In this document: piece by piece, positions 10,601 through 33,631 of the stretch
Layout: every line of letters begins with the position of its first letter
Position numbering within the stretch: position 1 is the first letter of the stretch
Assembly: GCA_905160935.1 (NCBI GenBank)
Contig: CAJHZI010000833.1
Coordinates: 371,001-435,000, forward strand
DNA: 64,000 nt
Origin: Enchytraeus crypticus
Lineage: Eukaryota > Annelida > Clitellata > Enchytraeida > Enchytraeidae
Direction of reading: 5' to 3'
Made by a program: the position numbers and the translations under genes
The notes under the pieces: model-generated
What the model was told of the DNA's origin: nothing
The model's database searches: none
The model's input: only the letters and a program-made list of their open reading frames with translations

Positions 10601-10607
10601 GCCTACT

Positions 10608-10736
10608 GGCTGGAGCCAGTGGCGATGTCGGTAAGATATTCGACCGCGGATCAATATGTGAGGGGTTCAAATCCTGGACTGACATCGCTTTCGAGTGAGG
10701 ATACTGACGCTAACATTAGCTTTACCAGCTTTTTAA
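10608..10736 (+). mobile_element. SINE-1 (tRNA-derived) copy
   Basis: Nearly full length: head GGCTGGAGCCAGTGGCGATG, B-box GGTTCAAATCC at about 10666, tail GAGTGAGGATACTGACGCTA and a final T-rich stretch. It sits about 160 bases downstream of the stop codon of the myristoylated-protein gene. Confidence 0.8.
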
Positions 10737-10896
10737 ATATTGCACAAAACAATGTAATTTTATATACCACTACATTTTACGGTTCTTGAACCGACTGTTC
10801 ATATACGTTCGAGCTGCTGAAAGGGGAAAAATTGACCCAAAATGGAGCCTTGTGGTTTCCTAGTAACTCAAGCGACAGTAAACCACAAAACAACAA

Positions 10897-13800
10897 TTAT
10901 ATTACAATCTTAGCCGGTCGATTTGAATTTCCAGCTAAGCCACTAATCTTACTGGAATCTCTATCGCCGCTGTGTGCATAAGAACTCTGATAATTATTAC
11001 TAAAGTTATGTCCAGAAGGTACACCCGAGCCAGCCTTTCTTGAGTCGTCATTCAGAGCGCTCTGAGATAAAATATCGCTCATGACCTTCGATTCAGTATT
11101 ATACAAACTGAAGAACTTTCCAGAACCCCCCGAGGCTGGAGAAGTGGCAGGAGTGGATTTAGCTGATCTCAGAGCCTTCATCGCATCGAATATGGCCATG
11201 TGGGACTCGGTTCCAGGAGGTCCAGGGTTCTTCACCTCTGAGCTGATCACTTGATCCGTTCTTTGCTGGCGAGTAACCTGTGACGTCACCACACGTTCGC
11301 CAGGTGGAAAATCCGAGGAAGGTCTTTGACCTTGCGGATGATCACGAGATATTAAAGGCTGGGAAGATTCTGACCTTGAGGTTGTGTAAGTGGTGTGAAG
11401 AGTTTCTCGTTGAAAGGAAGACGATTCGATGGTTGCCGAGGTCAGAATTGTGTGCTGCTGTGTTCCCTCTCCGCTAACTGGTTGATCGATGATTTCTCGA
11501 TTCCTATCGGTTGTCGACGATGTTACAACTTTAGAATTCTGCTCTTGAAGAAATTCTGTGATCGGTTCGTTTGTTTGCAGTCTTCCTCCATCACTAAACG
11601 TATCAATATTATGTTTATTGTTGTTCTGAAAGTCACGTTCTACTGTCACGTGATCCAAGCGCTGGTGTAGCTGATTCGAGCTTTGAGGGTTATTGCTAAA
11701 TCGCTCTGTGTTGTTCTCCGCAAAATCATCCTGATAATGTTTCAATTCTCTAACACTAGCTTCGTCGTTTCGTATAAAACCTGCCTCTGAAGAACCATCA
11801 CGACGCTCAGGCACGACGTGATCTATGTCTGTTCCAACATCTCCCACTTCCAACTGAGGCTTAACGTTGTTCTCCAGTGCTGGGTCTAAGGGAATGTCTG
11901 CATTGATGGTCTCCTGAACCACGTCTATCGTTGACTTGGGAGTGTACTTGTATTCTTTCTTTGGTGGACGACTCCGAGGTGTTGGTTCTCTTACGTCACC
12001 CTGAAATGTTGAACATACTACTGACCAACGAAGTATTAGAGAGAACTAGAAGATTCAGTAACAAGAACTGCAATATAGTCCAATGGTAGCAAATAAACTC
12101 TTTTGTTTACATTAAATTTAGATGAAACTCTGTTAATAATTAAGTATGTTAATTGTTGTTAATAGGCTTTCAGTGAATTATCATCGAACCGGAAGTGAGA
12201 CAAAAGTCGCCATCATTTTATAGGCTGTGGTGTATCTTCAACTTTTATATCTATGCTACTGACGTTAAATCCCAGTTGAACTAGGGTCGGGATAGAAAAT
12301 GCGGTAATAGTTTTGTATTAAGCTATTGAGAAGTAATGTCCTGAATATATTACGTCCCCTTTATATTATGTGTAAATAGCTGAGTGTGACAACATCATAT
12401 AACGCCAAGAAATATGTAAATAGCTAAGTGTGTGGGGCGCCAGATAACATCAAGATATGTCTAAATAGCTAAGTGAGTAAACGAGATAACGTCAAGAATA
12501 TGTCTAAATAACTACTAAGTGTGTAGAACAAGAGTCATAACAAGAAATGTGTAAATAGCTAAGTGTGCAGAGTGTCAGATAACGTCAAGAAGATTTACTC
12601 TTCCTAAGGGCCTGCTCCTCAGGTCAAGGGATCAATTCCCGAGTGGACTAATCGGAGCATAAGATCTCAGACAAGCACCCGATTGCAAGAACGAAAGTAA
12701 AAAAACTGCCTTTATAACTGTTGAATCATGGAATCGTCAAACATGGAGTATAAAAACGATGTACATGTACATGTATATCGTTAAAAAAAAACAGAGATGG
12801 TCATTTCACTATAATAAGTATTTATAAATATAGTTAGAAAAAATTACAAAACATGAAATGAAAACAAGTGACTGTAGGCTACCATTAAATTCTTTAAATA
12901 AGCTACTTATAAAAACACAAATGGTCCTCCTAGATAGGCCTATAGGGCCGCGTTGATACCTTTCATCCGTTATATAGGATTAGCACTATTGAAAATTTCC
13001 AAATATTAAATAAAGGCGATCAGTGATAGAATAAAATTTGACAAAAATAAATATTGACTTTAATGCTTTTAACGTAAATATTTGAAATACTGGTTATCAT
13101 TTAATTAATGATTATCATTTAATTAATGATTATCATTTAATTAATGATTATCATTTAATTAATGATTATCATTTAATTAATGATTATCATTTAATTAATG
13201 ATTATCATTTAATTAATGATTATCATTTAATTAATGATTATCATTTAATTAATGATTATCATTTAATTAATGATTATAATTTAATTAATGATTATCATTT
13301 AATTAATGATTATCATTTAATTAATGATTATCATTTAATTAATGATTATCATTTAATTAATGATTATCATTTAATTAATGATTATCATTTAATTAATGAT
13401 TATCATTTAATTAATGATTATCATTTAATTAATGATTATCATTTAATTAATGATTATCATTTAATTAATGATTATCATTTAATTAATGATCCATCATCAT
13501 GTATCAGCAAACAGACTTGAGCGTCAGAACGGAATTTTGTCAATCTCTTCGTGCTGAAAGAAATTTTACTGCAGAAATTTATTTGCTAATAATAATATCA
13601 ACAATACTATCAACCAATAAAAACACTTCACCGCTTACCACTGCTTGATTTTCTTCCTGTGGAACTGGATGATTATTTGGACTCAACGCGGATGGAGTAG
13701 AATTCTTCACGGATTCGTCAGTAGCGGAAGACTTTGTTACCGGAGTCTTCGTTGTGGACTCTGTTGTAACCGGAACAGCTGATAGAATTTCCTTGTATTC

Positions 13801-13917
13801 CTGTATCCGCTTTGATCCCCTCTTTGATCCTTTCTTTGATCCTGTCTTAGTGCCTGGTCCATACGGAGCCTTGTCTGGATCGGTGGTCTTCGATCCTTTA
13901 GAACACGATCCGCCCAT
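10897..13917 (-). CDS. Unrecognised protein with an N-myristoylation signal, two exons
   Basis: I do not recognise this gene. Exons 13639-13917 and 10897-12000 join in phase 0 at good GT/AG sites (GTG|GTAAGC and TTTCAG|GGT), giving about 460 residues. The N-terminus MGGSCSKGSK fits an N-myristoylation signal (Gly2, Ser at positions 4 and 6), with Cys5 available for palmitoylation. The polybasic stretch GSKKGSKRGSKR at residues 26-37 would strengthen membrane binding. A short segment after the junction is basic and Pro-rich (PRSRPPKKEYKYTPKSTIDV). The rest is Ser/Thr/Gln/Asn-rich and probably disordered, except for one possible helix (MAIFDAMKALRSAK) near the C-terminal third. Coding status is supported by the long open frame, matched phase across the intron and the coherent N-terminal motif. 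The intron contains an 18-bp satellite of about 22 units. Function unknown. Confidence 0.72.
12325..12600. repeat. Degenerate tandem repeat, unit about 45-60 bp
   Basis: Recurring TGTAAATAGCTAAGTGTG followed by AGATAACGTCAAGAA-like text, four to five diverged units. It lies in the intron of the myristoylated-protein gene. Confidence 0.65.
13093..13490. repeat. 18-bp satellite, about 22 units
   Basis: The unit ATTATCATTTAATTAATG is tandemly repeated almost without error; one unit near 13273 has ATTATAAT. Each unit contains the palindromic TTAATTAA. Intronic. Confidence 0.97.
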
Positions 13918-14556
13918 ACTGTGGGAATTATCTTTTACTTTATGTAATTAATCAAATCGATCCGTAGTAAGCACAACTGGAATTATACAAAAATAATTTC
14001 TTTTATTATCACTAAATTGTGATATTTTGCAAGTGTAATTCATTTATATAGAATAAACGTATTTTAAACTTGTGATTAACTGTAAACGCTAGCAGTGATC
14101 AAATTTACATTCAGACTCAGGAATCCGTTTCAAAGGCGATTATTATAATTAACGTACTTTTACCGATATGTCCGCTCAATTAAGCGATATAGATAGAATA
14201 TAGGCTGTTTAGTGGAACTACATGTCTTATAAGGTGCAGTAATATTATTATTGTCAACATTTCAACTGCCAGTGCCTATTAAACTTTGCATACAAAGTTA
14301 TCTATAGGCCTATGTGGAACGGACAAGTAGGCCTATAGGCTGTTTAGATGAGCCAGCCACGTGACCAATGTCGTCTGAGGTGTCCTAGAAATCGTATTGA
14401 GATAGTAAATAGTAAACGAACGTTAAAAACATCGTTATAGATGTGATCAGAAATAACCATGAGCTGCAAGAAGTAAAAAAGCGTAATATATTTTTATATA
14501 TCGTAGTACATGCAGTCATATACATTATAAATGGAATACATCTAAATAAATAAATG
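13918..14556. other. Upstream flank of the myristoylated-protein gene, no gene
   Basis: AT-rich sequence that should include that gene's promoter by position. I see no TATA box or CpG-rich block that would fix it. Confidence 0.4.
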
Positions 14557-14635
14557 GATTTGTCTCAATAATGCCAGATGTTGTCATGGACGACAGTAGC
14601 ACTCTAATTGTTGTTGTTGTTATTATAACATTCTG
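14557..14635 (+). mobile_element. LINE-T2 3' tail fragment
   Basis: TTGTCTCAATAATGCCAGAT, GACAGTAGCACTCTAATTG and a (TTG/TTA)n end match the T2 tail at 7547-7700. Confidence 0.6.
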
Positions 14636-14699
14636 AAGAGCCATTATATGTATAGAAATTATTATAAACAATTAGTAGTAGTATTTATTTTAACCCGGG

Positions 14700-15065
14700 T
14701 ACAAAGAACTGGAGGTATGATAATACGATTCGAGCAGTACGTCCTGAATCGCCGCCCGGCTACTCGAAGTCATCTAGCTGCTTTAAAGAACTGCTGCAGC
14801 AGACTGCATTAAATCTTTGCAAAGTCATGCATGGAATGGGTTGATAAAGAAAATAGGTCCCTCGCTCATCTCTGCAATAAATATGCTTATGCCATTAATG
14901 AAACCCGATTGGGATTCATAAGGCTCATAGTTTCAGTGGCCTCGGTTAGTTTAGCAGCCCTCCAAGCAACGACTAAAGTTGTTCTCAGGTAACAGTTCGA
15001 CATAGTGTCAATGACCAATGTAGGGATGTCTGCTCGCGAAAGGGTTCGCCATATTATGTCGTTTA
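14700..15065 (-). pseudogene. Degraded retrotransposon-derived coding fragment
   Basis: The minus-strand translation from about 15065 contains NDIIWRTLSRADIPTLV and, further on, ATETMSLMNPNRVSLM. These resemble the NDVIWRAL... and VETLGPM... blocks common in invertebrate retrotransposon polyproteins downstream of RT. Stops interrupt the frame. The similarity is judged from memory of the pattern and needs a protein search. Confidence 0.4.
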
Positions 15066-15185
15066 AATTGCGATTAATAATAATATAATTAATAATAATA
15101 TTATTATTATTATTATTATCGTTATTATTATTATTAATTGCTATAAAATGTTCCAATCCCGACCATGGCTATACTGGAACTCAAT
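15065..15185. repeat. (TTA/AAT)n tract and family-A 3' end
   Basis: ATT repeats at about 15090-15140, then the family-A end (TCCCGACCATGGCTATACTG, GGAAGATGATGAT). Confidence 0.5.
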
Positions 15186-16410
15186 GGAAGATGATGATAT
15201 CGATGATTATTATAAAATATGGTATTAGAATCTTCAATATTACTATACCAGAAAATAAACCCAACTTTACTGGTAAATTGAGTATACTAATGAAGTATAT
15301 ACAGTCCTACTTCACAACACACTAATCATGCATTTCTGTTACCGCTTTTGTATTTATTTATAAAATAAATTTATTTGTTGAATTTGAAATACAAATAGGC
15401 GCCTAATCTACCATTCGCCTTTCTTAAGCTCCCTACAAACTAACAATATAACCTCGTACTATTTATTACGCCAATATCGTCTTTGTAATTAATTAGAAAG
15501 TAGACTACAGCAACTTCAATTATGAAAATACACTGCTTATCTACCAACTAACGTGTTTTCACGAATATAACTCTAGAACCGCTTTATATTAGTCGCTTAA
15601 ATATTCTGAGATCAAAACGCTTACGTCAGTGTAACTATTCAATCTGTTTTATAGCATAAACTATCCGTAGCTTCGTTTAATGTTTTACAACACCGTACTA
15701 TTTGTCGTCGCAACAATTTCAATGGGTAACAAACTGAACGATCGCTGTAAGTTTCCGATTTGTTGAACGCATTTACTTCTCTAATCACCAACGCCTTATT
15801 TGAATTATAACAACCATATATTTCAATCAAGTATTTAATCCTAGTCTCTTAGCTGCTACGCTAGTCTACCAACTAACCTGTTTTCACCTGAGTTACCCAT
15901 TCAACGTCTCAAATAGATCTAAAGCCATACAATATCAACAAGTTGTAACCAGGTGTGCAGGCCTATACCTTTCAGCGCAATAATTCACTTATATTAGCCC
16001 TTGTGTGCCGCCAGGCATCGTTTAAGCACTGAATAAGTGGGGTGGTGGCAACGTTGCCCCCTAGCACGAATTATCCCGAAATGACACTATCTATTCCCTT
16101 CTTTAAAATCCGAAACTTTCTTTGAGTGAGTTTTTGACAAAAATTTCAGATTTATTGTTTGAATTTGCTTAATCTCTTCTATTGATGTAATCCAAATGTA
16201 AAATCATAGAGCTTTGTTATGTAAATTCTTCTTTATTACTAGTGTGATAAAGTCAAAACATTTTTTTTATTTATTTCACCAATTCAATGGTAGACAAGTA
16301 CAAAAGACAACATTGCAAAGCTATCAAGTGAGCAACTAACATGCAAATTGTCAATATTGTTAAATGACAAAAAGTGAATAGCAAAATTATAAAACGTTAC
16401 AGGCACATCC
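15186..16410. other. Gene-free stretch
   Basis: AT-rich single-copy-looking sequence. A 63-codon minus frame at 15639-15830 has no recognisable motif and is not called. Confidence 0.5.
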
Positions 16411-16412
16411 AA

Positions 16413-16541
16413 TGGCTGGAGCAAGTGGCTATGTCTGTAAGATATTCGACCTCAAATAAGTATGTGCGGGGTTCAAATCCTCTGCTCGCCCGTCACTGAC
16501 ATCGCCTTCGAGTGAGGAAACTACGTTAACATTAGCTTTTT
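16413..16541 (+). mobile_element. SINE-1 (tRNA-derived) copy
   Basis: Head GGCTGGAGCAAGTGGCTATG, B-box GGTTCAAATCC, then CGCCCGTCACTGACATCGCC and the tail GAGTGAGGAAACTACGTTAA. Confidence 0.8.
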
Positions 16542-16544
16542 ATA

Positions 16545-17865
16545 GATTTATCCATGCTTAAAATTGAAAAATATATAAAAAAGAAGTTTTATAATAAAAA
16601 TTGCAAAACTTTGATGGAATTTCAATTTATTCTCAGTGACATTATAAAAGTGTTTAACTTCTCCCAGTTTAGAAATCTAAAACCGCCAAGCGCACTTAGT
16701 TTAAAGCTTTAGCCCGTCTTCCATTAATATGCAAAGAATCTCCAACGAAAATTGTCGCGGTCGGTAGACACTTTACAATCGATTTTACAATAAACTTACA
16801 TTAGATACGCTCGAAGCCCACACTAAGTCTTGGGCGCCGTGTTGTTACTTGTAAGCTTTTGACAACTGATACACTCCGTACGTTTTACGTTTGAATTAAC
16901 AAGCGAGGGCATTGCTTGCGGTAATTACTACAGACCAGGGGAGTTGATGAAATATGTTAGATTTTAGTTTAGTTTTCATTTCCTAATTTGTCACATCAAC
17001 AACTAAGAAGGTGCACCCTAAATAAAATCAATTCAGTTCGGACTCAAGTCCGTATCCTACAGTAGAAATCTGCTTCCATATTGGACTATATGCTTCCTTA
17101 TTGGACTATATGCCTACCTACGCTGTGCTGTATGAACTATGCCAGATGTAGAATGCGTGTCTTTGTACAACAGTTTTGTTAAGATTTAGCTAGGAAATAG
17201 TTATATTGTAATTTAAACCGTTTTTTTGCTATATGGAATATATGCCTAAAAATGTATAAGGTCCAGGAACTTTGTTTTTCAGGCATAATAATTTTCTTAA
17301 TTGTAGTAGATATACAATAGTAATTCATTATTTATTTTAAACCATCTCTTGACGGTCGAATATAATAGTTAAATAACTCTTATGACGTGATCGAATTTAT
17401 CAGATTTTGTTATCTCTATCCTGACAGTTTATTTACTATGCATGTTTCACTTGTTTGGAATTACATGAGACGTTAACGGTTATAATGAATGATTGTCAGT
17501 TATTAAAAAATTTACTTTACGTTGTTGTTCATTTTTTAATTAATTAAATATTTAATTGAAATACATCATTAAATGCAAAGATTGAAAAGATTGAAGAAAT
17601 AAACGCTTCCAATAATTCGGATTCATAAAGCACTCGTTTGATTTATTACACATATACATGTAAATCTCTTAATAAATCTGTCAGGCGACATGTATCACCA
17701 CGTTCACGTTGTAAAACTTCTAAATCGAAGCTGCTGGTGGCTTATGCTATAAAATGGATTAAATAACTTGATCCTAGCGCTTTGATCTCAGATTATTTAA
17801 GCGATTAGGTAAGCTTCCACAGTTGTTCTGACGTTACATTTATTCGATGCAACTTACCATTGTAA
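16545..17865. other. Gene-free stretch
   Basis: Mostly AT-rich. A small direct repeat, CTTCCATATTGGACTATATG, occurs twice near 17075-17115. No gene seen. Confidence 0.5.
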
Positions 17866-17867
17866 GT

Positions 17868-18075
17868 AGCACTAGCCCGTGTGGTGTCCGACTATTACAG
17901 AATATACACACCGTAAACTCACGCGTTGTAGCAGTCGATTAAGCAGAAACTGAAGAAGGCAGTGGGAACCCGTATCAGAAGCCAAATTATTTCATGGATA
18001 AAGATTTGATGAAAGCTTTTCCTTTGGAGTGGGATTAACTTGTCAACGGAGTAATCTTCGAACGTGAATGCAGGT
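17868..18075 (+). mobile_element. Family-B repeat, diverged copy
   Basis: AGCCCGTGTGGTGTCCGACT, GTGGGAACCCGTATCAGAAG and TGGGATTAACTTGTCAACGG follow the order of the copy at 8978-9306. Confidence 0.5.
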
Positions 18076-18123
18076 TGTGTAGGTTTATCCTTACCGGGCC
18101 TATCTCACTAGACGGAGCGTAAG

Positions 18124-18124
<1 letters not shown>

Positions 18125-18164
<40 letters not shown>

Positions 18165-18429
18165 GGTATAACGTCCGTTTCCTCATCCAAGGATGATGTA
18201 AGGGACGTCCCCAAAGCACACATCACTACAGATCACCTCACCCAAACCATTCTGCAAAAGAAATATGCTGAGGAGAAGTAAGGTTCTAAACGAAAGCCGG
18301 TCCGGTGATCAAAAATGGTCAGGGTTGATTGCTTGTGTCTCTGGTGAGAAGAGGCAAGTCTTAAGCTTACAACAGAAAGCTGAAAGAGAAGAACAAGAGC
18401 TAAGATAAATGGGTGCAGAGTTCCAGATA

Positions 18430-18430
<1 letters not shown>
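18125..18430 (-). pseudogene. CR1/L2-like LINE (T1), 3' end
   Basis: On the minus strand the last pol codons read LWNSAPIYLSSCSS and FCCKLKTCLFSPET, followed by GATCACCGGACCGGC, AGCATATTTCTTTTGCAG, GTCCCTTACATCATCCTTGG, GAGGAAACGGACGTTA and a (TTA)n tail (plus-strand AAT repeats at 18125-18160). It carries the same tail as the other T1 copies. Confidence 0.7.
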
Positions 18431-18476
<46 letters not shown>

Positions 18477-18493
18477 AAGAGATAGAGAGAGAT
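18431..18493. repeat. (GA)n microsatellite
   Basis: GAGAGATAGAGAGAGA... run adjoining the LINE-T1 copy. Confidence 0.9.
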
Positions 18494-18539
18494 ACCTAGT
18501 TAGTTGGGACTCGAGCACCGCTACCATGTTCAAATAGTA

Positions 18540-19126
18540 TTGAGACTAATGACATTTTGACGTAGGCCTATATTTTCTGCTACATTTATATAATTATTGT
18601 CAACTTATCAGAAGGCGTATATTATAGTCTAAATCATAGAATGGGCTTGCAGAATTTGACAAGATATCACGAAGATATCACATATGACAATTATCAGAAC
18701 GACACGTATATATCTATAAGGCTAGTATTTGTTTTGTACAGACTAACTTGCATTTTATATTTCTTGCGCGTTAGGTCTCAGATTCATTATAATTTAGTAC
18801 CACGTCTAGACCTTAATTAATGCAGCCTGCATGTACATGTATATGTTGTATATGTTGATACACTTCCAACGTACTTTATTGCTCATTTGTAATTTTACAC
18901 CTACTTTTTCATTTCAATTAAGCAAAACTAGACATAGAATCTGTAGGTTTGTGTTTATATTGCATAGGTGCGGTCATGTTACATTGGTTAGCCCTATTAC
19001 GTGTAGTTCGTTTGAACTTCTAACGGTTTGTAAAGCAGCACCTTCAAGGCTGTAATATATGCTGCTTACTCTATTTTAATTTTTTAAGGTAAATATTTGC
19101 ATGTTGGCACTCCCTCCCCCCAAAAC
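18540..19126. other. Gene-free stretch
   Basis: AT-rich sequence; a 74-codon plus frame at 18831-19055 has no recognisable motif. Confidence 0.45.
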
Positions 19127-19272
19127 TGAAATAATAATAATAATAATAATAATAAAGGTTTAACGTCCGTTTCCTCATCCAGGGATGATGTCAGGGACGT
19201 CCCCAACAGCACACATCACTACAGATCAATTCACCCAGACCAATCTGAGCAAGAAATGTGCTGAGAAGTGGC
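19127..19272 (-). mobile_element. LINE-T1 3' tail
   Basis: The reverse complement reads CTCAGCACATTTCTTGCTCA, TCTGTAGTGATGTGTGCTG, GTCCCTGACATCATCCCTGG, GAGGAAACGGACGTTAAACC then (TTA)n. Confidence 0.7.
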
Positions 19273-19830: not shown

Positions 19831-19832
19831 CT

Positions 19833-20296: not shown

Positions 20297-23200
20297 CTAG
20301 GAACCGAACACTTGTTCAATAAATTCTTCATAGTCCAGTGTCCCGCTCTGATCCTTGTCCGCCATCTTGATGATCCGATTGAGTTCGTAGTCGGAGAAAG
20401 CTTTTCCCATACTCCTGAACACACTGTCCAGTTCAGACTTGTCGATCTTTCCGTCTCCGTTTATATCAAAAGAGCGAAAGACAGATCTCATAGTAGCGGC
20501 TCTGAAACATAAAAAATAACAAATCGATGTAAAATACAAATGAAGGCATAACATAACGGCATCCTTGGCTCAGGAAGAACACAGATGCTTGTTCAAGGTA
20601 TACCTTTTAACTCGATTAACACATGTATGATATTTAAATGTCTCCTTCATTTTGTGACACGAAGTAGCCATTCGAACAAAATTAAATCGCGCACAATGCC
20701 ATAGATTCACTAAACCCTTCAACAATCTCTTTTCGTCCCTGACATTGTCCTAAGATGAGGAACCGGACGTTAAATTCTTAGCATTATTTTATCGAATTTT
20801 AATAACGTCGTAGAGGAATCGAACGTACCAAAATACATAGATTTTGCTTGCTTACGAATTTCTATTGGACAACTTTAGCGAGTCAGCATTAGTGTATTCA
20901 CTGTGGTAAACAACCGCATTTTTCAAAGCATTCCAGTGTAAAGAGATGAAGCAGGAAACGATAGTAACAGCTGATAGTTTAAGTCAAGTTTGTTTATCGA
21001 GTTTGTCAATAGTCTTAAGTCAAGACGCTCTCATGCCGATACTTTCTGTTTCTCATAAGATGATCTACTTTCATTTAGGCGAGTGGGTTCAAACATATAG
21101 AGGCCTAGTTTGTTTAATTTTACAACGAACAAAAATTTTAAATCTTCAAATATTACTAATTCTTTTAAAATAAATAGTCTTAAAGTATCTCAATTCTTTC
21201 AAATTGAATTAAGTCGCTAGTAACAGTTTGTTCTTTGTCAAACTGTCATATAAACATAAGCCTAACCATATAAATTTAAGTGCGGAATATTTTTGCTCGA
21301 ATACACAAGAATTAAACTACTCATGAACGTAGTTAAGTACACGTTTAATCCAGTTTGTTTAATCCAACAATTTAATCAAATATTATTTATAATCAGCACG
21401 GTTAATCCATAGTTGCAGCCCACCACTTTGATTCAAACTTTTTTTCTGTACAGAGTTAATGCATGCAGGCATAATTAAACTAACTCGTCACACTGATTCC
21501 CATATCCTAGTTCATTTTTGCTCAAGTTGGGACTCAACGAAATAGTAAATGAATAGTAACGAAACACATAAATAAATTATATATATATTCCTCATCATCA
21601 TCAACATCTTTCCTTAAATCCCAGTTTACTGGAAGTAAATTATATATAGGCCTATATATATTAATATATAAAATATATTACAAATATATATCCATTATAT
21701 ATTAAGCTCTACAACATTAAGTAATGTAGGCCAATAGATCTGCAGACACTGTAGTTAGAGCCTAAAATCGAATTAGCTCAGTTGATAGAGGATAGGCCAG
21801 TCACAATATTCTGATTTCCAGTCAGTAATTAATAATGAAGTACGTAAAGTCTATAAATGTACAAAAACAATTTAATAACTAAACTAATTATTTCTTTCTA
21901 AGCTACAGCGGATAACTTAATATTTAACTTTATTAGTTTTACTAATAGCGGAAGTTTGTATTTCTAAAGTTCCAGATATTTTAAATCCAGTGAACTTGTT
22001 AATTGGGGTCGGTTCCTATGTAGGCCTATCTTGAGCTATTTCATTCTAGTGATGTCAAAAAGAATAAGATTTAAAATAATACTGATAAAAACCACATTCG
22101 CTGAAAGATAATGATTACATGTGATAGATAATTATTACAAGTAGAGCCAAGCGTTTAGCCTCTGAGAGTCTGACTCATTAACGACTTTCAGGAAAATTAT
22201 CACTTCAGCAGTTGAAGTGTTGGCTATACATCGCACTTGGCTCGAGTGAATCAGCTTTAATAGCGTCAGATCTAAACTCTAAACTCTAGCTTGAAATTCA
22301 TATTTCTAAATTCTAATGTAATTTGACCTGTTATCTTTTAAGCGTGTACAGTATTGTTGATAATCATTACAGCTATTACACGTTACTGCTGTTACACGTT
22401 ACAGCTATTGAACGTTATAGCTATAACACGTTACAACTATTACAAGTTACATCTAGCTACTACATGTTAATTTGCTAACGTTAAAATGATATCTAAAACT
22501 GCTAAAATTTTAATATTTGAACATAAAATATTACAATTCTAAAGTTTCATGCTGAAAGAGATCAGAAGGTCACAGGTAGGAAATCTTTCAACATAGAAAA
22601 TAAAGAGAAAAAGACTAGAACATACTTATGATTCTTCGGAGGCATTAATCCCATAGCGATCTTGTATTCTTCCAGAGATATCTTGTTATCTCCTGAAGTG
22701 TCCACTGATCGGAACATATCCTGAGAAAATATATATACAGGATAACATTGATGAACACATGGTTAGTTCATCATCTGTTTATCGGTTTGGTTTTGATTCT
22801 ATTGTGCTCGATTTTGTCCTAGACGATAGTAGCGCAGTAGTTAATATTGTAGTTACTGTAGTTATTTCTGCATCAGCTTGATTAAGCTAGCATGGTTAAG
22901 TTAGCATGGTTAAGTTAGCATGGTTAAGTGGGCATGGTTAAGTTAGCATGATTAAGCTAGCATGGTTAAGTTAGCATGGTTAAGTGGGCATGATTAACTT
23001 AGCATCCTTAAGTTAGCATGGTTAAATTAGCATGATTAAGTGGGCATGATTAAGTTAGCATGATTAAGTTAGCATGATTAAGTTAGCATGATTAAGTGGG
23101 CATGATTAAGTTAGCATGGTTAAATTAGCATGGTTAAGTGGGCATGATTAAGTTAGCATGGTTAAGTTAGCATGGTTAAGTTAGCATGATTAAGTGGGCA

Positions 23201-24595: not shown

Positions 24596-24602
24596 GCATA
24601 AA

Positions 24603-24795
24603 TATGAAAGAGAGAGCAGATAAACAGAAAGAGAGCGAGAGCGAAAGAGAGCGAGGGAGAGAGAGGGAGAACGAATGAGAGAGAGAAAAAGATAAAGATA
24701 GAGGCAGAGAGAAATAGGCAGAGAGAAAGAGAGATAAAGAGAGAGAGAGAGAGCGAGAGAGGGAAAAAGAGAAGAACAAGAAAGAAAAGAGAGGG
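24603..24795. repeat. Impure (GA)n purine tract
   Basis: About 190 bases of GAGA with scattered A and C. It opens Ser/Leu-rich frames on the minus strand that are not genes. Confidence 0.85.
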
Positions 24796-24894
24796 AAAAA
24801 AGTAACAAGAGTAGAACTTTAATTAGATCTACTTATGAGATGCATATATAGCCTCTTAGCAACTTTTAACATGTTAACTGGGGGCGAGTACCCT

Positions 24895-24955
24895 TGAAGA
24901 TTCTTTGCCCTTCCTGACATCGCCTGTGGATGACGAATAAAACGTTAAACCTCAA
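24895..24955 (+). mobile_element. LINE-T1 or SINE-1 tail fragment
   Basis: CTTCCTGACATCGCCTGTGG then GACGAATAAAACGTTAAACC: a diverged shared tail; too short to assign to the LINE or the SINE. Confidence 0.35.
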
Positions 24956-25240
24956 TTGAGAAAGAAGACTCCTAGAGATCTTTAAACTCGTATTTTAGGA
25001 TATGTACTGGGGATACACTATAACACTTTCTCGCCATACTCCTCAGCGTTACGCTTTTCGTCTAATAACCACGATATTGCAAAAAGATTCGATTTACGCA
25101 GATATTAACCAACGAGTGATAAATTGAGGCGCTAAGCTGTGATATCAACCAAACTATACAGAATATTATATCCCCGATGGTTACTAGCGGTGAGGCAAAA
25201 CGATCGCAAATAATAACAAACAAAATTTTCTCTCTCTTAT

Positions 25241-25300
25241 GTGTGGGTCTTAAACAAGCAGTTGCTCTTTCTGACCCAGTACAGTTATATGTTATGTTAA
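25241..25300 (+). mobile_element. 5S-SINE family, 3' tail fragment
   Basis: Shares the AAACAAGCA...TTTCTGACCCAGT block and the following TTATGTTA region with the tail of the 5S-derived SINE at 5167-5460. No 5S head is present, consistent with 5' truncation. Confidence 0.55.
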
Positions 25301-25448
25301 CATATTGGAAACTTTAGAACTGATCTTAAATTTACTAACTTATCTTATGAGAACTTCTTATTTTGCTTATATTTCATATTTTACTCATTTATCATATTGA
25401 TAACCTTTAATTTGGCTTAAATACGGTATTTGTATTAATAACACATAG

Positions 25449-25450
<2 letters not shown>

Positions 25451-25540
<90 letters not shown>
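25451..25540. repeat. Compound (TA)n(GA)n microsatellite
   Basis: TA run 25451-25500 followed without a break by a GA run 25501-25540. Confidence 0.95.
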
Positions 25541-25543
<3 letters not shown>

Positions 25544-25544
25544 G

Positions 25545-28140
25545 GATTTAGATTTAACAATATAGATTGTATTCTATAAGGTCTATGACTGAACTCCAAA
25601 TTGAATTTTGTTTCGGCAATAACTTTTTCCTTCAATTTAATCAAGAATTTATACACACCGGTACAAGAACCTTATAGCTATAGCAAATAGTTATAAATTA
25701 ATAATTAGGCCTATGCTTGTAGATTAGTTCATGACGATACTTTAGACACGTACAAATCGACAGCTATCTAAACCTATCTTTACACTGTATTACTCTACTG
25801 TGGTCTCTACAGCAACTAGTAAGCAGCTATAGGTTGTGTATGTAGCATATCTACGCGTTGTTCATCATACGTACAAGCCAGATAGAAAGAGCGTGCTAGG
25901 CGATAATACCAGTTCACCGTGAAACATTAGCCATGGGAATAAACGTGTAGCTCAGTTTTGCCAATGTTAACCTAATCTCTGCTATAACTTTTCATCTAAT
26001 TAATATGGGAGCGTGATGTTACCTTTTTGAATTGTTTCTTTTATGAATTACAGGAAAGCATGAGATTAGTAAAAAAAGTAACGGAAAATCGAAACGAAAG
26101 AAAAACCAAAAACAAGAGAAAATCAAAATTAGCAAAGGAAAAATAAAGAAAACAAAAAACACGAAATAGAGAAAAGGAACGAATTAAAAAGAATGCATTC
26201 TATCAAATAGCCTGTGCCATATCTTAGGCTTAATAGCCAAAAATGTGCAAAATAAACAAATTTGAAGGTAGGATTATGCATACTCGTAGCATGTTATTAG
26301 GTTTCAGCTTCAATGTATATTGAAGAATCCGTCAGCTTCATTTACTTTCATTTTATAGTTACTCTTGTGTAGTCTTACGTGGCTGTTTACTTTCTCTACT
26401 AGCCTACTATGTTTATTGTTTACACGGGCATGATGAACATACATTTATGTTGTGATCAGGGCCGACGCCAGGCCCAACTGACTGGGGTGTACGATAGCTC
26501 ATTTATGGGGGGCCAAATTTCTTTTTGCAAGGTACACCAAATTCTATACGGTACACCTTATTTGACAAGTTTCATAATTAAATTTGACATACAGAAACAT
26601 AATAGTGTTAATGACAGTGACATAAAATAAATTTAGGCTACTGTACATTTTAATATCAGTTTATTTAATTTATATTAATTTATTAAAGCAAACTTTTGAC
26701 TAAATTATAGCCAGGCAATTATTCGGTCGTAAGTTAAATTTCTATAGCAAACTAATATTAATTGTATTATGGGAATTTATATAGTATATTTCTGTAGGGA
26801 ACAATAGCCTTTACAAAATCTACTACTTAGCTTCTCAGAATACAGAATTGAACATTTTTAGAGTGATGTCAAACTTTAAGCTTGTGCAACAGTTAAACTG
26901 TGATTACTAATAAATAATCTTTAATATGTCCCAACTTACATTTAACTTTCATATGTCTGGTAGAGCTGCAAACTATACTGTGTGTTTAACTTTTACGCTA
27001 CTTTTACTCTTACTTTAACGTTTTATTATTATTTTTTTATTTTACTTTTTTACTTTTACTTTCTAGGCTACTTTTCAACTATGAAATAGCATAATGCAAC
27101 TTCGTAGCTATCATGCGTACCACTTAGGGGCCTATATCATTAATCAAACTGGTGGTAGACTACAATCAATCGCTAATCTTTAAATAACCAGCTATAACCA
27201 GCTCTGCAGTATCTTGTATTAAATCTATTATAAAAATGAACCATAAATATCAATATCATAGCTGATTTAAACAAAACTCTAGCCGAACAGCTAATACGCC
27301 ATTTATCGCGATGAGTCCACATCCTCACATGTCATAGGCTTGGATTTAGAATCCACAGAGGTCGATAACGTCAGTATACGTAGAATTAAAAATTAGTAAT
27401 GTTGTTTTTATGAAGTAAATTAAAGCATAGCCAAAAATTATGTAGGATTTCTATTTTTTATTTTTAATCCAGATTTTTTAATCCCGTACTGTAGATTTTA
27501 AATCCAGCATATTTAAAATCCCGTACTATTGTCAGAATATTAATGACCTGTAATCATTCTACAAATGGCATGTCTTTAAGTGAGAAACGGAAATGCTTAT
27601 GAGTAGAATTTAACTATTTAAATTTTCGAATTTAGACTCACCATTTACACTCTTAGTTAATGCAATAAACAATTCTGAATTTGAGATATTTTATTAGCTT
27701 TCAACGATTAACTGTCAAAATATATTTAAATGTAACTTTTAATATTAAAGTTCAGTTTCTGCGAAATAATTGTAAGTTGATTAGTTCCGGATAAATGGAA
27801 ACAGCCAGCAACATAATGCTTCCAAGTAATACCTATAATTACAACACTTTTTGGAAAACTGTCTCGTAAATTGCAAATCTATTAAAGCATCCAAACTCAC
27901 AAATTGCACGTCTATAGGCTTCAGTGTGTTTTAGGCTACTAGTGGACAAGAGGGAGCGCTAACATGTATTTACCCAGCACTTCAACGCAACAGTCAGTCT
28001 TAATGGTTTCTGTAGGCGTGATATAGCAATTAGGCTATGCCACAGAATTAGCTTATGATTAGCCTTAAATATACTCCAATAAAATGTAAATGTCACGAGA
28101 TGAAAGTGTACCTTTAAAAAACATGTAGTGTAACAGTGAG
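25545..28140. other. Gene-free stretch
   Basis: 2.6 kb of AT-rich sequence. 26455-26530 is G-rich and resembles hAT-derived text (GGCCGACGCCAGGCCC, GGGGGGCC). An A-rich block lies at 26070-26200. No gene seen. Confidence 0.5.
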
Positions 28141-28304
28141 AGAAAGCATGTCGTAAGAAGTAACTAATCCAGGAGTGGAGGAAGGCAACTGAAAATTACT
28201 AAAGAGGTCATATTTTTCAAGCTCTGACTACATTAAGATTTGCTATAATAGTCATATAACAAGTCTATAGTTTATACTCCATTATAGTACACTCTGCTCC
28301 GAGA

Positions 28305-28547
28305 TCTTCGCCCATGTTCCACTGTTTCCACTTTCTCTAATGAGCAGAAAACATATCTCTTTCCCCCATAGATATATATTATCTTGCCTGACTGGTTTTT
28401 GATCACCGGACCGGCACCGTTCAGGATCCCTTTTCTTTCCCATTAGCATATGCTTTTAAGATGGTTTTGGGTGAATCGATTTGTAGTGACATGTGATGGA
28501 GGGACATCCCTGACATCATCCTTGTATGAGGAAACGGACGTTAAACC

Positions 28548-28577
<30 letters not shown>
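28305..28577 (+). pseudogene. CR1/L2-like LINE (T1), 3' end
   Basis: CCCATGTTCCACTGTTTCCA through GATCACCGGACCGGCACC, CGATTTGTAGTGACATGTG, CCCTGACATCATCCTTGTA, GAGGAAACGGACGTTAAACC and (TTA)n. It is collinear with the copy at 31800-32135. It sits downstream of the HTD2 stop codon. Confidence 0.7.
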
Positions 28578-28580
<3 letters not shown>

Positions 28581-28876
28581 ATATTGTCAATGAGAGCATT
28601 TGAAGAGTGTCCAATCAGAATGCAAGTAACAGTAAGTAGTTTGGTCCTTGGACTTGAAAATTTTTAGAATACTGCTGCAAGATAACAGCAATACGATATT
28701 AAATCATGACGAAAATAACTTTAAAATAGTAAAATTCAATGTTAAGCTATATAACTATATATTTTGAACAAACATAAAGCAATTTTATAGAACCAAGCAA
28801 GCTTGATATAACTATAGAATAAAGTAATTAATTGTGTTATCCATAACAGACGACAGTCAATAGGAAACTAGAATAT

Positions 28877-29073
28877 TTAAGATTCAGGTTTGGATTGAAC
28901 TAAAGATTTAGGAACAAGAGTCAATGCTTCTCCTTTTACAAGAACCTGAAATACAAACAGTATAACATGTAAAACCACAACTCCATAAAATACTGCCAAA
29001 CGGTGGGGCCCAATAAAGAAGAATTCCAAGACCCTGAACATATGGTGTATGCTATAAATGCAACATATGCCAC

Positions 29074-29109
<36 letters not shown>

Positions 29110-32100
29110 ACACACGCATACTCTCTCTCTCTAATCACTCTCTCTAATGTTCTGCCAAGTGGCAGAACATTAGAGAGAGTGAGAGAAAGAGACAGAGAGA
29201 GAGAAACCCTCCATAAGAGAGTAACTGCTGTACCACTCAATACATCCACAAGTTAATCACTTCACAAAACGCCAATGCCATATTCATGCAGCCCATAGCT
29301 TAGGAAAATAAGACTTCTGAAGTGGTTTTCCGTTGCATTTCTCAGTTCTTGCTCAGTTGCCTTTTACACAGTCCAGTTACAGGTTGGTCTATTTTTCAGT
29401 GACTTGAACACAAAACGAAAAAAATTTATATTCCATTATAAATACCAAAAATGTGCCAATAACGTAACATCCGAGATAAAGTAGCCAAAACCAAGTGAAA
29501 ATCTTCTATATACAATAGAATATGCTATCAAACTCCGAAATTCAGCTGCATATAAGAAATTACTCAGACAAAAGGTAAAAATTTCATTAAAGCTTGAAAA
29601 AATCATAACATTACACGTTTAACGGCCTCGAAAATGTTGTGTCTCATTCATTAAAGAGCAAAAATTTAATATTCCTTAGATGAATTAAATTACAATCTAC
29701 AACATGAAGTTGATAATACTATAAATTTGGTTGCAGTAAGCTTAACAATTAGCCCTATGGTATCCATTTATATCTTTAAGGTACCCATTCTCGGTACTCA
29801 GGGACGCCCATTTAGAGAGAGTGTCAATATACATGACGTCCCTGACATCTTTCTTGGATGAGGAAACAGACGTTAAACCTTTATTATTATTATATATATA
29901 CAGCAGTATTCCTAATATCATATACAGTAGACTACTAAAAAAAACAAAAAACTCGCATTATAGTGAAATGATCAATTATGTCGATATCTATTACTTTTAG
30001 CACCACATGTTTAAACCGTTAGGCAATCTAGTCCATTTTCCGTATAACCAGTCCAGTAAATATTCGAGATTTTACTCTCAGATCAGCGCGGTTGGGATTC
30101 GAACCCGCGAGAGTTCAATTCACCTCAGGATCTGTCATTTAAAATTTCATGATGTTACCCCTACGCTATTAAGACATTCAATAGCGTAGGGATAACTGAA
30201 GTTCTAGCAAGCACACAACAGGTAACAAACAGTAAAACTTAGTTTCAAGTATTATAAAACACTTATAGTGTCAGAATTACCTTAAATTTGGCATCCATAC
30301 ATTTCAGGCTGAACGTCGCTCGACGCCCTTCCAGCTTTATCAACTCGACCTCAGAGAGAATAGAGTCGTTTACATAAGCTGTAGCAATAGTGAAATTAGA
30401 CAGTACAATTTAAAGTTCATGATAATAAGTAATACAAGTAATCAAGCTTAAGTACTGTATATAATAAGTAGGCCTACTACAATAATATACGTTTAATACT
30501 TTATAATTACTATTAATAATTATAATTAGATATCTAAAAATTGGCATGATTTTTGCATCTCTCATATACCAGCTGTTATAATATATAAAAAACATGATTA
30601 AAATGTCCTACCCAGAATATGTAAGAAAACTGTTAAAATTCACGCTCATCATCTGTGCATTGACTAAACAGTGATTCGTTTGAGAGATAAATGATGTATC
30701 ACTCAACCAGAAGTCAGTGCAGAATCGCATTTACTACTGTAAAAAATATAGAAGTTGCGTGATAAGTCACATATTAGAAAAAAAATTACAACATGAAATA
30801 AAAAAATAACAATTTCACTAAAAAATTTATAGAACTGAAGCAAATAATCAGCATTTTTCGTAAGAAAGTTTTATAAATACATCAAAACAGCCAAATTGAC
30901 CTATAACTGAGAAAAATAACTGTGACAAAACGGAGACAAACAGAAGAATTTATGTGCTAGTTAAGCAGCAAAATTAATTTAGGTCTTTAGAATAAATTCA
31001 TTACAAAACCTTTGAGCAAATTACAAATTTCTATAATAAATACAATAATCTATTTACCCGCGCTGTGTCAGAGTTGCTGAAAAATAGACTAATCATGGAG
31101 CCGTGGACTGCACGTGTCGTAAAAGGCGACAAAGCACTAAGATTCAAACCAATGTCTGAAAGAGCATTCGGTGGGTGAGCGCCTAGGCTCCGGAAATTAC
31201 TGAAAAATTGTCTCTAACAAATGGATATTATCCCGACCCTAGTTACACTGGAATTCAAAAGAGACGATGTTGATGAATAGAATATTATGTTGAATAGTAA
31301 TTTATATTAATTAGTAATTGAAAGTTTTACAAATAAATTAGTTAGCAATTGCAAGTGTACAAGGATGGTACCATCACACGCCACACGGCTAGGCTTGGAA
31401 CCTGTGTACTTATACTTACATGGCAAGTTTGATGCGCAATTGGACATTAACTGGGACATTAAAATTGGTAGTTCAGAAAAGAGATTAAAAACAAAACTAA
31501 ACCTGGTGCAATGAATTCCATGTTATAAGAAATTAATACAGTGCCCATTCCTGGATATTTAGTTCCTAAAATCCCTGACAGGATCCTATAACAAACAAAA
31601 ACATTAATTTTAATATCATTAATATCAAGAAATGAAACAATTATATAATTTTATATACGTAGGCCTATTTTTTGCTAAAAGCACCAAAATCCAGTAAACT
31701 AAAACCAGAATCTGGCACACCACTTATACATACATGTCTATAAAAAAAACTTTAAATAACGTTGACTCACTCAATGTCTATAACTGAAAGACTTTACTGA
31801 AATTGTTTTGATTTTTCGTTCATTTTCTTTCTCCACTCCTACTGTTTGGAACTCTCTGCCTCTTGATCTTTGCTCATGTTCTACTACTTACACTTTCCGT
31901 TGTAAGTTGAAAACACATCTCTTCCCACCATAGATTTTATTTCATCTTGCCTGACTGTTTTTTTGATCACCGGACCGGCACTGTTTAGTTTCTTTTATTT
32001 CGATTCAGCACATGTTTCTTCAGATCATTTGGGGTGAATCGATTTGTAGTGACATGTGATGGGGGGACGTCCCTGACATCATCCTTGTATGAGGAAATGG

Positions 32101-32370
32101 ACGTTAAACATTTATTATTATTATTATTATTAAATTAAACTATTTACTCAACTAGAAATAGATAGGATGCTTTGCGACCTTTATGGCCTAGTATTTGATT
32201 CCATTTTGGGTGCACATTTTGGCACTCAATTTCTCTTATTACTTAGCTTCTGTTAATGATTATTTCACATGTCCGTCACATGTTCATCCATGCTATTGCT
32301 TTTGTGAAATTTGCAAAATTAAACAAAATTCTCTCTCTCTCTTAAACATATTTTTCTCTCTTTCTGAGAA

Positions 32371-32466
<96 letters not shown>

Positions 32467-33631
32467 ACGGCTGGAGCCAGTGGCGAAGTCGGTTAGATAC
32501 TCGACCGCGGATCAATTAGGTGCGGGTTGAAATCCTGGCTCGCCCGTCACTGACACCGCTTTCGAGTGAGGAAACTGAAGTTAACTTTAGCTTTAGCTTT
32601 ACCATAGTTATATTTGAATGACATGAGCATGTAACAGTCCTGTAACATGCATGTAGGAGGCCTATCTCACATTATGGTAGACTTTAGATTATGTTTAAGT
32701 GGCTCACCTAAAAGAGCGCCTACTATAGTGGACTAAATTCTATCATAGAATGATCATTGAAAGCTCAATATTTAAAGCTTCAAGCGCCTACATGTGTGCC
32801 TAGCATCTGAAGGTGGTTGTATTGAACATGAATTACATATGTACGTAGGTACATCCTACCAACTTGTCATCATCACAGGCTAAACCACAAAGCTCTTTTC
32901 AGAGCAACAATTTCAAAAATTTCATGCCATCTCATATTATAGTGAGATACATGCATGTAAGTTTGTTACACGGACTCTCCATGCAAAATGTTTGTATTTG
33001 TGTATTGAAAATGTTTGTATTTGTGTATTGAAAATGTTTGTATTTGTGTATTGAAAATGTTTGTATTTGTGTATTGAAAATGTTTGTATTTCAGAATTTG
33101 TCTCTACTCATATTCCCAAATCTATAAGGTTCCAGTTATTATAAAAAATATTCAAACATAATTTCTCTCGCTTGGCAAAACTAGCTGTAGGTCAAGCCCA
33201 ACAAATTTATTTAAAGAACATCAGTCAGTTCGTTGCTCCTTTATATATATTTTATATATTATAACATCTAATCAATCATTCAATTAAACTTTAAAATAAT
33301 AAATAAATAAATTGAGATTGTGCAATCTAATAAAATAGGATTACTTAAATAAAAAAATCTAATTTTAATATATAAGATTGCTAAATTAAATTGGAACCTA
33401 CCCAGCAAGCAGTACGCCGTGCACAATAGGTTTTCCATAACGAGTTGATTTGGCGTAGGTGTGATCTAGATGAATGGGGTTGGCATCACCGGAAACCTCT
33501 GCGAAATTTCTAACATCTTCATCAGAAATTGTTTTTATCACTGAAGCTTTACTTCCAACGACAAGCGTGGCATAACATCTAGATAATCCGAACTGACACA
33601 GTCTTAGAGTGTTTGACAGATGAAGGAACAT
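28877..33631 (-). CDS. HTD2: Hydroxyacyl-thioester dehydratase type 2, mitochondrial, four exons
   Basis: Enzyme of mitochondrial type II fatty-acid synthesis that dehydrates (R)-3-hydroxyacyl-ACP to trans-2-enoyl-ACP. Exons: 33402-33631, 31503-31585, 30281-30378 and 28877-28945; all junctions are GT-AG and in phase, giving 159 residues (human HTD2 is 168). The N-terminus (MFLHLSNTLRLCQFGLSRCY) is basic and amphipathic, as expected for a mitochondrial signal. The R-specific hydratase (MaoC hot-dog) signature is present: SGDANPIH at 48-54, with the expected catalytic Asp49 and His54, followed by RYGKPIVHG. Exon 2 gives LSGILGTKYPGMGTVLIS and exon 3 the last hot-dog strands. In vertebrates this frame shares a transcript with RPP14; no RPP14-like sequence is seen nearby. 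Introns carry SINE-1, SINE-2 and LINE tails. Confidence 0.93.
29078..29108. repeat. (CT)n microsatellite
   Basis: Short CT run next to the hairpin at 29136-29181. Confidence 0.9.
29136..29181. repeat. Perfect inverted repeat, 22-bp arms, 2-base loop
   Basis: Arms 29136-29157 and 29160-29181 are perfectly complementary (core ATGTTCTGCCA / TGGCAGAACAT), with CT-rich distal ends. HTD2 intron 3. Confidence 0.95.
29197..29400 (-). mobile_element. Family-B repeat copy
   Basis: Plus-strand order AGTTAATCACTTCACAAAAC, GACTTCTGAAGTGGTTTTCC, TTGCTCAGTTGCC and GGTTGGTCTATTTTTCAGTG is the reverse of the copy at 8978-9306. Confidence 0.6.
29800..29897 (+). mobile_element. LINE-T1 3' tail fragment
   Basis: GACGTCCCTGACATCTTTCT, GATGAGGAAACAGACGTTA and (TTA)n. 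It lies in HTD2 intron 3. Confidence 0.6.
29943..30192 (-). mobile_element. SINE-2 (tRNA-derived) copy
   Basis: Read on the minus strand: GAATGTCTTAATAGCGTAGG with an A-box-like TAGCGTAGGGGTAA, then B-box GGTTCGAATCC, the body GAGAGTAAAATCTCG...GGTTATACGGAAAATGG, the block GCCTAACGGTTTAAACATG and the end TTCACTATAATGCGAG. It lies in HTD2 intron 3 in the same orientation as the gene. Confidence 0.75.
31055..31280 (+). mobile_element. Family-A interspersed repeat
   Basis: Head CCCGCGCTGTGTCAGAGTTG, GTGTCGTAAAAGGCGACAAA, GCACTAAGATTC, AGCGCCTAGGCTCCGGAAAT, end TCCCGACCCTAGTTACACTG then GATGATG. An element of about 220-290 bases with no coding capacity. It lies in HTD2 intron 2. Confidence 0.65.
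31800..32135 (+). pseudogene. CR1/L2-like LINE (T1), 3' end
   Basis: The translation includes TVWNSLPLDLCSCSTTYTF and RCKLKTHLFPP, the C-terminal signature of CR1/L2-type pol. It is followed by GATCACCGGACCGGCACT, the T1 tail and (TTA)n. It lies in HTD2 intron 1, antisense to the gene. Confidence 0.75.
32335..32466. repeat. Compound (CT)n(TA)n microsatellite
   Basis: CT-rich 32335-32431 then TA to 32463, immediately before a SINE-1 copy. Confidence 0.9.
32468..32596 (+). mobile_element. SINE-1 (tRNA-derived) copy
   Basis: Full copy directly after a (TA)n tract: GGCTGGAGCCAGTGGCGAAG with an A-box-like TGGCGAAGTCGG, a slightly mutated B-box (GGTTGAAATCC) and tail GAGTGAGGAAACTGAAGTTA. It lies in HTD2 intron 1, antisense to the gene. 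Confidence 0.8.
32985..33095. repeat. 23-bp tandem repeat, about 4.5 units
   Basis: The unit AAAATGTTTGTATTTGTGTA plus TTG is repeated almost exactly. HTD2 intron 1. Confidence 0.93.

Follow-up and report, generated by a model that had tools for sequence, protein, structure and literature searches.

Here we describe SINE-1, a short interspersed nuclear element (SINE) found in a 64,000-nt stretch of the Enchytraeus crypticus genome (the window, meaning this whole stretch: G000:C730:371001-435000, from an assembly of 524 Mb in 802 contigs), whose 3' tail is a hairpin that also stands at the 3' ends of two families of long interspersed nuclear elements (LINEs), T1 and T2. As judged from the sequences, the LINE origin of the SINE-1 3' tail is well supported, and it is quite likely that SINE-1 is a tRNA-like SINE with the hairpin tail of an L2-type LINE, copied by the LINE machinery of this group. 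The hairpin is probably the handle gripped by the LINE copying enzyme, and its base is a preferred 5' end shared by T1 and T2.

Results

A tail shared by SINE-1, T1 and T2

SINE-1 is about 135 bp long and consists of a tRNA-like head and the hairpin tail. The SINE-1 and T1 tails are identical, without gaps, at 31 of 40 positions, the best of 20,000 mononucleotide shuffles reaching 25; SINE-1 and T2 are also identical at 31 of 40 positions, and T1 and T2 at 30. A match between the SINE-1 and T1 tails over about 40 bases had been proposed in the initial annotation of the window, and these counts, together with clean reversed controls, bear it out. When up to 3 mismatches are allowed, GAGGAAACNGACGTTAA matches at 18 places in the window, where 0.38 would be expected. 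Genome-wide, at up to 2 mismatches, the SINE-1 tail has 28,434 matches, the T1 tail 6,446 and the T2 tail 4,195, and the reversed-pattern control gave 0 in each case.

The same relationship emerges when the SINE is used as a probe for the LINEs. A profile of 38 rows, built from headed SINE-1 copies only because an iterated SINE profile (abandoned and superseded by this one) drew in T1 tails, was scanned over 277 kb at E up to 10 and gave 128 matches, 82 of them below 1e-3. Outside headed SINE copies lie 67 of the 128, among them the tails of T1 and T2, with E between 1e-5 and 0.14, and roughly a dozen matches at chance level; most young T1 tails score near 1.4e-4 with this SINE-only profile, and the reversed-sequence control yielded 5 matches, the best at E 0.42. 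The sequence studied included a 174-kb sample, made up of the window and eleven 10-kb stretches at round coordinates of long contigs (L039-L043, L058-L063), the contigs being chosen as already known from earlier matches; further sequence came from loci drawn in by searches and from three sets of short segments surrounding matches to the tails.

The likeness between SINE-1 and the LINEs begins at the base of the hairpin, upstream of which SINE-1 has GGGCTCGCC, T1 GATGGGGGG and T2 CTGCAAGAG. After the hairpin, T1 ends in (ATT)n and T2 in (TTGA)n; the SINE-1 3' terminus is ATTAGCTTTACCAGCTTTTT or variants of it, with neither of these repeats. Four tail strings, searched as letters, were not found in the open-access papers searched, and a single scan of each of two other collections, of genome contigs and of viral contigs, gave no exact match to the tail patterns.

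SINE-1 copies in the window

A blastn search with one SINE-1 copy recovered five full copies and partial ones. The initial annotation had counted seven or eight, in agreement with the five full, one deleted, two head-only and one old copies listed here:

10606..10740, + strand: SINE-1 copy, tRNA-like head and hairpin tail (blastn, profile)
16413..16539, + strand: SINE-1 copy (blastn, profile)
32469..32595, + strand: SINE-1 copy (blastn, profile)
32544..32581, + strand: hairpin of one SINE-1 copy (row S_w32544 of alignment A2, below)
44995..45139, + strand: SINE-1 copy (blastn, profile)
45686..45828, + strand: SINE-1 copy (blastn, profile)
~652..739, + strand: SINE-1 copy with an internal deletion that takes part of the 5' side of the hairpin
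58862..58909, - strand: SINE-1 head-only fragment
63350..63402, - strand: SINE-1 head-only fragment
51969..52078, - strand: old, diverged SINE-1 relative

Genome-wide, 40 exact SINE-1 tails were sampled from the first 72 places listed, thinned by contig (two of them, L114 and L115, seem to represent a single copy that was duplicated). A clear SINE head is present within the 75 nt upstream in 38 of the 40 (score at least 46; 40 shuffled flanks reached 18). Of the remaining two, L107 retains only 7 nt of the head (score 14), and L123 has a weak, detached head match (score 22) and is either hairpin-only or internally deleted. Within the head, TGGCGATGTCGG and GGTTCAAATCC resemble, by eye, what we take to be the consensuses of boxes A and B of RNA polymerase III promoters.

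T1 and T2 are LINEs

T1 is a real LINE that encodes an endonuclease (EN) and a reverse transcriptase (RT). In single T1 copies Pfam identifies RVT_1 (E 1.1e-27 in L014 and 6.3e-14 in L036) and Exo_endo_phos (E 1.5e-8 in L056), and the second open reading frame (ORF2) ends in KLKTHLFPP* about 135 nt upstream of the hairpin; the ORF2 end in L036 matches the ..FRCKLKTHLFPP* of the window copy. The ORF2 terminus of T2 (L076, L077 and L079) is akin to that of T1 and likewise reads KLKTHLFPP* (..WNSLPQDLRSCNCIGTFLGKLKTHLFPP* in L076). We place both families in the CR1/L2 group on the strength of motifs presumed to be typical of it, such as FYADDTQLY, and the T1 copies are 5' truncated, as for a CR1/L2-type LINE. 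Of the full-length T1 ORF for which the initial annotation suggested a search, RT and endonuclease pieces were recovered in single copies, but a complete uninterrupted ORF2 was not seen among them. Of the T1 3' end, 39 copies, together with the query the best 40 of 4,437 first-look candidates, are 94-95% identical to the window query. The idea that T1 was a chimera inside a longer repeat was ruled out on reading the loci, since matches on the - strand had not been turned round.

The LINE-type 3' ends of the window are as follows, the pieces reduced to the hairpin being listed further below:

31830..32112, + strand: LINE T1 3' end, with the end of ORF2, the 3' untranslated region (3'UTR), the hairpin and the start of the (ATT)n run; ORF2 end ..FRCKLKTHLFPP* read by eye
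32067..32104, + strand: hairpin of one T1 copy
28289..28549, + strand: LINE T1 3' end (blastn, profile)
18163..18425, - strand: LINE T1-type 3' end (blastn, profile)
19155..19264, - strand: LINE T1-type 3' end (blastn, profile)
52219..52401, - strand: LINE T1 3' end (blastn, profile)
60713..60805, + strand: LINE T1 3' end (blastn, profile)
6480..6589, + strand: LINE T1-type 3' end (blastn, profile)

With one T1 copy as query, blastn finds eleven LINE-type pieces (SINE tails not counted), and the SINE profile finds 12 LINE-type tails. By our reading nine of these are T1-type (6544, 18208-, 19200-, 28504, 29836, 32067, 52259-, 53538- and 60763), two are T2 or T2-like (20733 and 59538-), and that at 24908 is weak (E 0.05) and fits no named family. 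The set of eleven or so T1 copies given at the outset is thus a mixture of T1, an older T1 type and T2.

Other observations concern these and related LINEs. GDIELNPGP, which we take to be a 2A-like ribosome-skipping motif of the kind known in some non-LTR elements, occurs in the N-terminal frame of a T1 copy (L054:2231-2842, on C546, upstream of T1 copy L014). Another L2-type LINE lies at 7700-8450 of the window, with about 36-40% amino acid identity to T1-type ORF2 ends and a different 3' end that by eye resembles a hairpin (GTGCT...AGCAC) and precedes (TTA)n; similar 3' ends stand at 7622, 14559, 22792 and 35399. Tails with the shared hairpin that fit neither T1 nor T2 (24908-24950 of the window and L003:866-905, - strand) hint at more families.

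The shared part folds into one hairpin

The shared part is a 36-nt hairpin whose lower and upper stems, of 5 bp each, are separated by a 6x6 internal loop, the upper stem carrying a terminal loop of 4 nt. The lower stem has the consensus CGUC(C/A)...(G/U)GACG; the internal loop reads CUGACA on its 5' side and GGAAAC (GGAACC in T2) on its 3' side; and the terminal loop is UUCG in SINE-1, CUUG in most T1 and UUAU in T2. This fold with 5 + 5 bp is the best fold of the 40-nt core in 5 of the 7 tails folded (SINE-1, two older T1, T2 and the tail at 20733 of the window), and in young T1 the upper stem has 4 pairs and the loop 6 nt.

Alignment A2 comprises 21 hand-chosen hairpin copies of SINE-1, T1 and T2, whose rows are related, so that its cells are not independent events. 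Within it, 89.2% of the cells are paired, versus 82.9% when shuffled; the covariation score is 0.328 versus 0.203, falling to at most 0.134 when the partners are slid by 1-3 columns; and 21 cells are changed on both sides versus 7.7, with none of 500 shuffles as high for any of the three shuffled comparisons. RNAalifold predicts 8 of the 11 pairs from the same alignment. A comparison of the families shows that some changes in the stems are compensated. At pair 6-33, 13 of the 16 LINE rows have CG and all 5 SINE-1 rows have AU; at pair 16-23, most T1 rows have UA, as against CG in SINE-1 and in three of the four T2 rows; and at pair 17-22, SINE-1 has UA where older T1 and T2 mostly have CG. No Rfam family reached its gathering score in the window, and six short loci searched at E up to 10 gave 4 matches, all to other families and all below gathering scores. 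The 3' element of the LINE UnaL2, which we take to be an Rfam family, was thus not among the matches.

Which LINE may move SINE-1

We propose that the SINE-1 tail, taken over from the 3' terminus of an L2-type LINE, would be used for copying by LINE machinery: the ORF2 protein would bind the shared hairpin and start reverse transcription in the 3' repeat, so that SINE-1, as a carrier of the hairpin, would be moved by a LINE of the T1/T2-type group. Such a role has precedents in zebrafish. According to Hayashi et al. 2014 (PMC4176376), the 3' stem-loop of the zebrafish L2 LINEs is required for retrotransposition, the loop sets the specificity and a swap of the stem is tolerated, and in ZfL2-1 and ZfL2-2 the ORF2 region between EN and RT binds the 3' stem-loop.

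Several points weigh against this proposal. The loop and 3' terminus of SINE-1 are unlike those of both T1 and T2, and the shared fold is not the one taken by L012, an old SINE relative. In A2 the double-change pairs (4) and the further pair types (11) are not above the shuffles, 209 and 408 of 500 of which, respectively, are as high; moreover, the A2 counts are inflated by the kinship of the copies, which makes the comparison of pairs between families the safest statement. A scan of the window with ARAGORN detected no tRNA gene, the SINE-1 head being tRNA-like by eye only. Finally, target-site duplications are not in excess around SINE-1 (38 copies; mean common string 4.95 versus 4.63 in mismatched pairs), although L2-type elements often have short or no target-site duplications, which makes this absence weak counter-evidence.

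The initial annotation had joined SINE-1 and T1 as a SINE/LINE pair. The LINE-derived tail stands, but T1 is no closer to SINE-1 than T2 is. Since the loop decides specificity in zebrafish and that of SINE-1 differs from those of T1 and T2, we do not name T1 as the partner, and we assign no single LINE to SINE-1, because T1 and T2 match it equally and neither has its loop or terminus. T1 could nevertheless be the present partner if its ORF2 read the stem and internal loop and tolerated a differing tetraloop and 3' end. Its tail identity with SINE-1, its abundance and the likeness of its best-listed copies, and the fact that it adjoins SINE-1 in the window speak for this, whereas the equal match of T2 and the unlike loop and 3' repeat speak against it, as does the behaviour of the zebrafish elements, where a swapped loop sharply cut ZfL2-1 retrotransposition and a ZfL2-2 loop mutant was immobile (PMC4176376). 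On balance we regard T1 as a rather unlikely partner.

A stronger contender, to which we give a little less than an even chance, is a third, unseen L2-type LINE that has the SINE-1 loop and 3' end and is rare or extinct in the assembly. It would account for a SINE-1 tail with a loop and terminus of its own and for older SINE relatives that already had CACTGACATGCTATCGAG-like tails, unlike those of T1 and T2. Against it, the search for a LINE with a much better match, the case that the initial annotation had set against its pair, did not find one: genome-wide, the LINE-type lower stem combined with the SINE-1 upper stem and loop occurs at 0 places with 0-1 mismatches and at 7 with 2. One of these 7 is a headed SINE copy in L044, and the other six, as judged by their letters, depart from the pattern either in the direction of the SINE form or at single positions. 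Likewise, none of the 40 sampled exact SINE-1 tails has LINE-like sequence in the 75 nt upstream, a sample in which a LINE with the SINE stem as well, accounting for a few percent of tails, could remain hidden. That the tails are alike by convergence, or through a common non-LINE repeat with no role in copying, is very improbable: the hairpin does occur without LINE or SINE sequence, in the hairpin-only copies described below, but 40 nt in the same order, with partly compensated stems, are found in two LINE families and a SINE, and the hairpin sits at the 3' end, right before the terminal repeat. Copying by LINE machinery of this group, through the hairpin, thus remains our preferred interpretation.

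Old SINE-1 relatives and rearranged copies

Old relatives of SINE-1, 26-33% from the consensus, were observed at L040:2363-2488, L040:2879-2999 (- strand), L042:5757-5859 (- strand) and, in the window, at 51969-52078 (- strand). Some of the old relatives have a tail with another upper stem and a ACTTGGCTTTAA-like end, and SINE tails therefore appear to have had a long separate history. The 5' start of SINE-1 is a palindrome, ACTGGCT-GG-AGCCAGT, and directly upstream of some copies there is an inverted duplicate of the head, as though the end of the cDNA had folded back and primed itself (L044:630-755, - strand; L050 near 1506; L109; L120; C799:706806-706984). Strict filters identify such snap-back duplicates in 1 of 38 copies and, in a second set, in 1 of 61, the rest being recognised by eye only.

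LINE copies that start at the hairpin base

Some LINE insertions consist of the hairpin and the terminal repeat alone, about 45-60 nt in all. The window contains four hairpin-only copies:

29836..29881, + strand: hairpin-only T1-type copy
53493..53538, - strand: hairpin-only T1-type copy
59494..59538, - strand: hairpin-only T2 copy, then (TTGA)n
20733..20777, + strand: hairpin-only T2-like copy

In the 174-kb sample, whose tail classes exclude weak unassigned rows, 10 of 13 T1-type tails run into the T1 3'UTR and 3 start at the hairpin base, preceded by sequence unrelated to T1; 1 of 4 T2-type tails continues upstream and 3 do not; and 2 of 13 SINE-1-type tails are headless (all by eye). The idea of a preferred end at the hairpin base was set down before it was tested on newly sampled copies. 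For T2 we took 20 exact tails out of the first 25 places listed, leaving out five on contigs already sampled: 10 of the 20 start 0-3 nt upstream of the first base of the pattern, with upstream sequence unshared at E 1e-3, 9 have the T2 3'UTR in common (blastn) over about 25 to more than 350 nt, and the remaining one, L078, has about 25 nt of it by eye. For T1 we took the first 20 exact tails among the matches listed, a sample in which L089 and L090 seem to represent a single copy that was duplicated, and from which copies with T for A are missing because the T1 pattern starts one base before the T2 pattern. By eye, 5 of the 20 start 0-1 nt from the hairpin base, a further one (L091) has a start that is ambiguous within 2 nt, two reach only some 9-14 nt upstream of the base, and 12 extend over some 75 nt or more. 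Ten of 20 T2 ends within a 4-nt stretch have p 2e-15 if truncation is even over 400 nt, and the T1 clustering has p 3e-4 if it is even over 100 nt. In both T1 and T2, therefore, 5' ends fall preferentially at the recognition hairpin's base.

Hairpin-only copies amount to 15 of 40 for T1 and T2 together versus at most 1 of 40 for SINE-1 (Fisher, with 1, p 1.2e-4), and an equal hot spot in all three families was dropped on these counts. When only truncated copies are compared, at most 1 of 13 for SINE-1 versus 15 of 40, the contrast is not significant (p 0.08). The rarity of SINE-1 ends at the base may reflect a different enzyme, a transcript of a different kind or the small number of truncated copies.

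Of 15 hairpin-only LINE copies (scored within L065-L083 and L096-L102), 13 have T as the host base next to the junction, the background being 0.32 in the window (p 3e-5). The 10 hairpin-only T2 copies have no excess of target-site duplications (mean 5.2 versus 4.9).

Sampled LINE copies often start at the hairpin base, and the LINE part of SINE-1 starts there too, which suggests that this is a frequent end point of reverse transcription or of its template, and also the point at which the SINE was joined. We tentatively raise the possibility, to which we give clearly less than an even chance, that the hairpin base is a hand-over point, at which LINE insertions stop and at which the SINE arose by a jump of the RT. 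Two routes to the LINE ends can be envisaged: the RT would copy the bound hairpin and then often fail to proceed (abortive target-primed reverse transcription), or the bound ORF2 protein would shield the hairpin while the remaining RNA is degraded, the remnant still serving as template. For the origin of SINE-1, the RT would jump at the hairpin base from the LINE RNA onto a tRNA-like RNA.

Discussion

SINE/LINE pairs with a CR1/L2-type tail are already well known; one survey counts 58 SINEs with a partner LINE, with cases from sea urchin and sea anemone among them (PMC3747384). The elements described here share features with several such systems and depart from most of them: (i) In the eel, UnaL2 and the SINEs UnaSINE1 and UnaSINE2 also share a stem-loop tail with an interrupted stem between a SINE and an L2-type LINE (PMC5135761). 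However, their shared tail includes the short terminal repeat, whereas SINE-1 shares none with T1 or T2. (ii) Eel UnaL2 and zebrafish ZfL2-1 and ZfL2-2 belong to the L2 clade and need their stem-loop for retrotransposition (PMC4176376, PMC5135761); the hairpin of SINE-1, T1 and T2 differs from these in sequence and in having a symmetrical 6x6 internal loop, and it lacks the GGAUA loop of UnaL2 (PMC5135761). (iii) In sea urchin, SINE2-8_SP with L2-1_SP/CR1-3_SP and SURF1 with CR1-4_SP are likewise described as combining, in an invertebrate, a tRNA-type SINE with a tail of the CR1/L2 group (PMC3747384). (iv) The maize and sorghum SINEs that go with LINE1-1_ZM have putative tail hairpins with compensatory changes, as here, but their LINE is of the plant L1 clade and the sequence is another one (PMC3747384). 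(v) In Magnaporthe, the chimeras of MGL, Mg-SINE and WEIRD indicate that the RT leaves the LINE template at preferred points, and template switching is named as a source of chimeric SINEs; those hot spots track a GCC*A/U motif along the LINE, and not the base of a recognition hairpin (PMC2104539).

Within the literature searched, the hot spot at the hairpin base may be new: no description of hairpin-only copies was found in open-access texts, in a search in which the prime sign could not be used.

Our results add a large case to the rule that SINEs and LINEs share their tails, with 28,434 SINE-type tails and two LINE families, in which the changes in the hairpin can be read across families: the stem and internal loop have largely been kept and the terminal loop has changed, and a direct test of what the LINE enzyme reads is therefore feasible. 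If the hot spot at the hairpin base reflects the copying reaction, the genomic copies would preserve traces of a stage in target-primed reverse transcription which is difficult to observe by other means, and would provide a concrete reason for the position of the junction between SINE and LINE.

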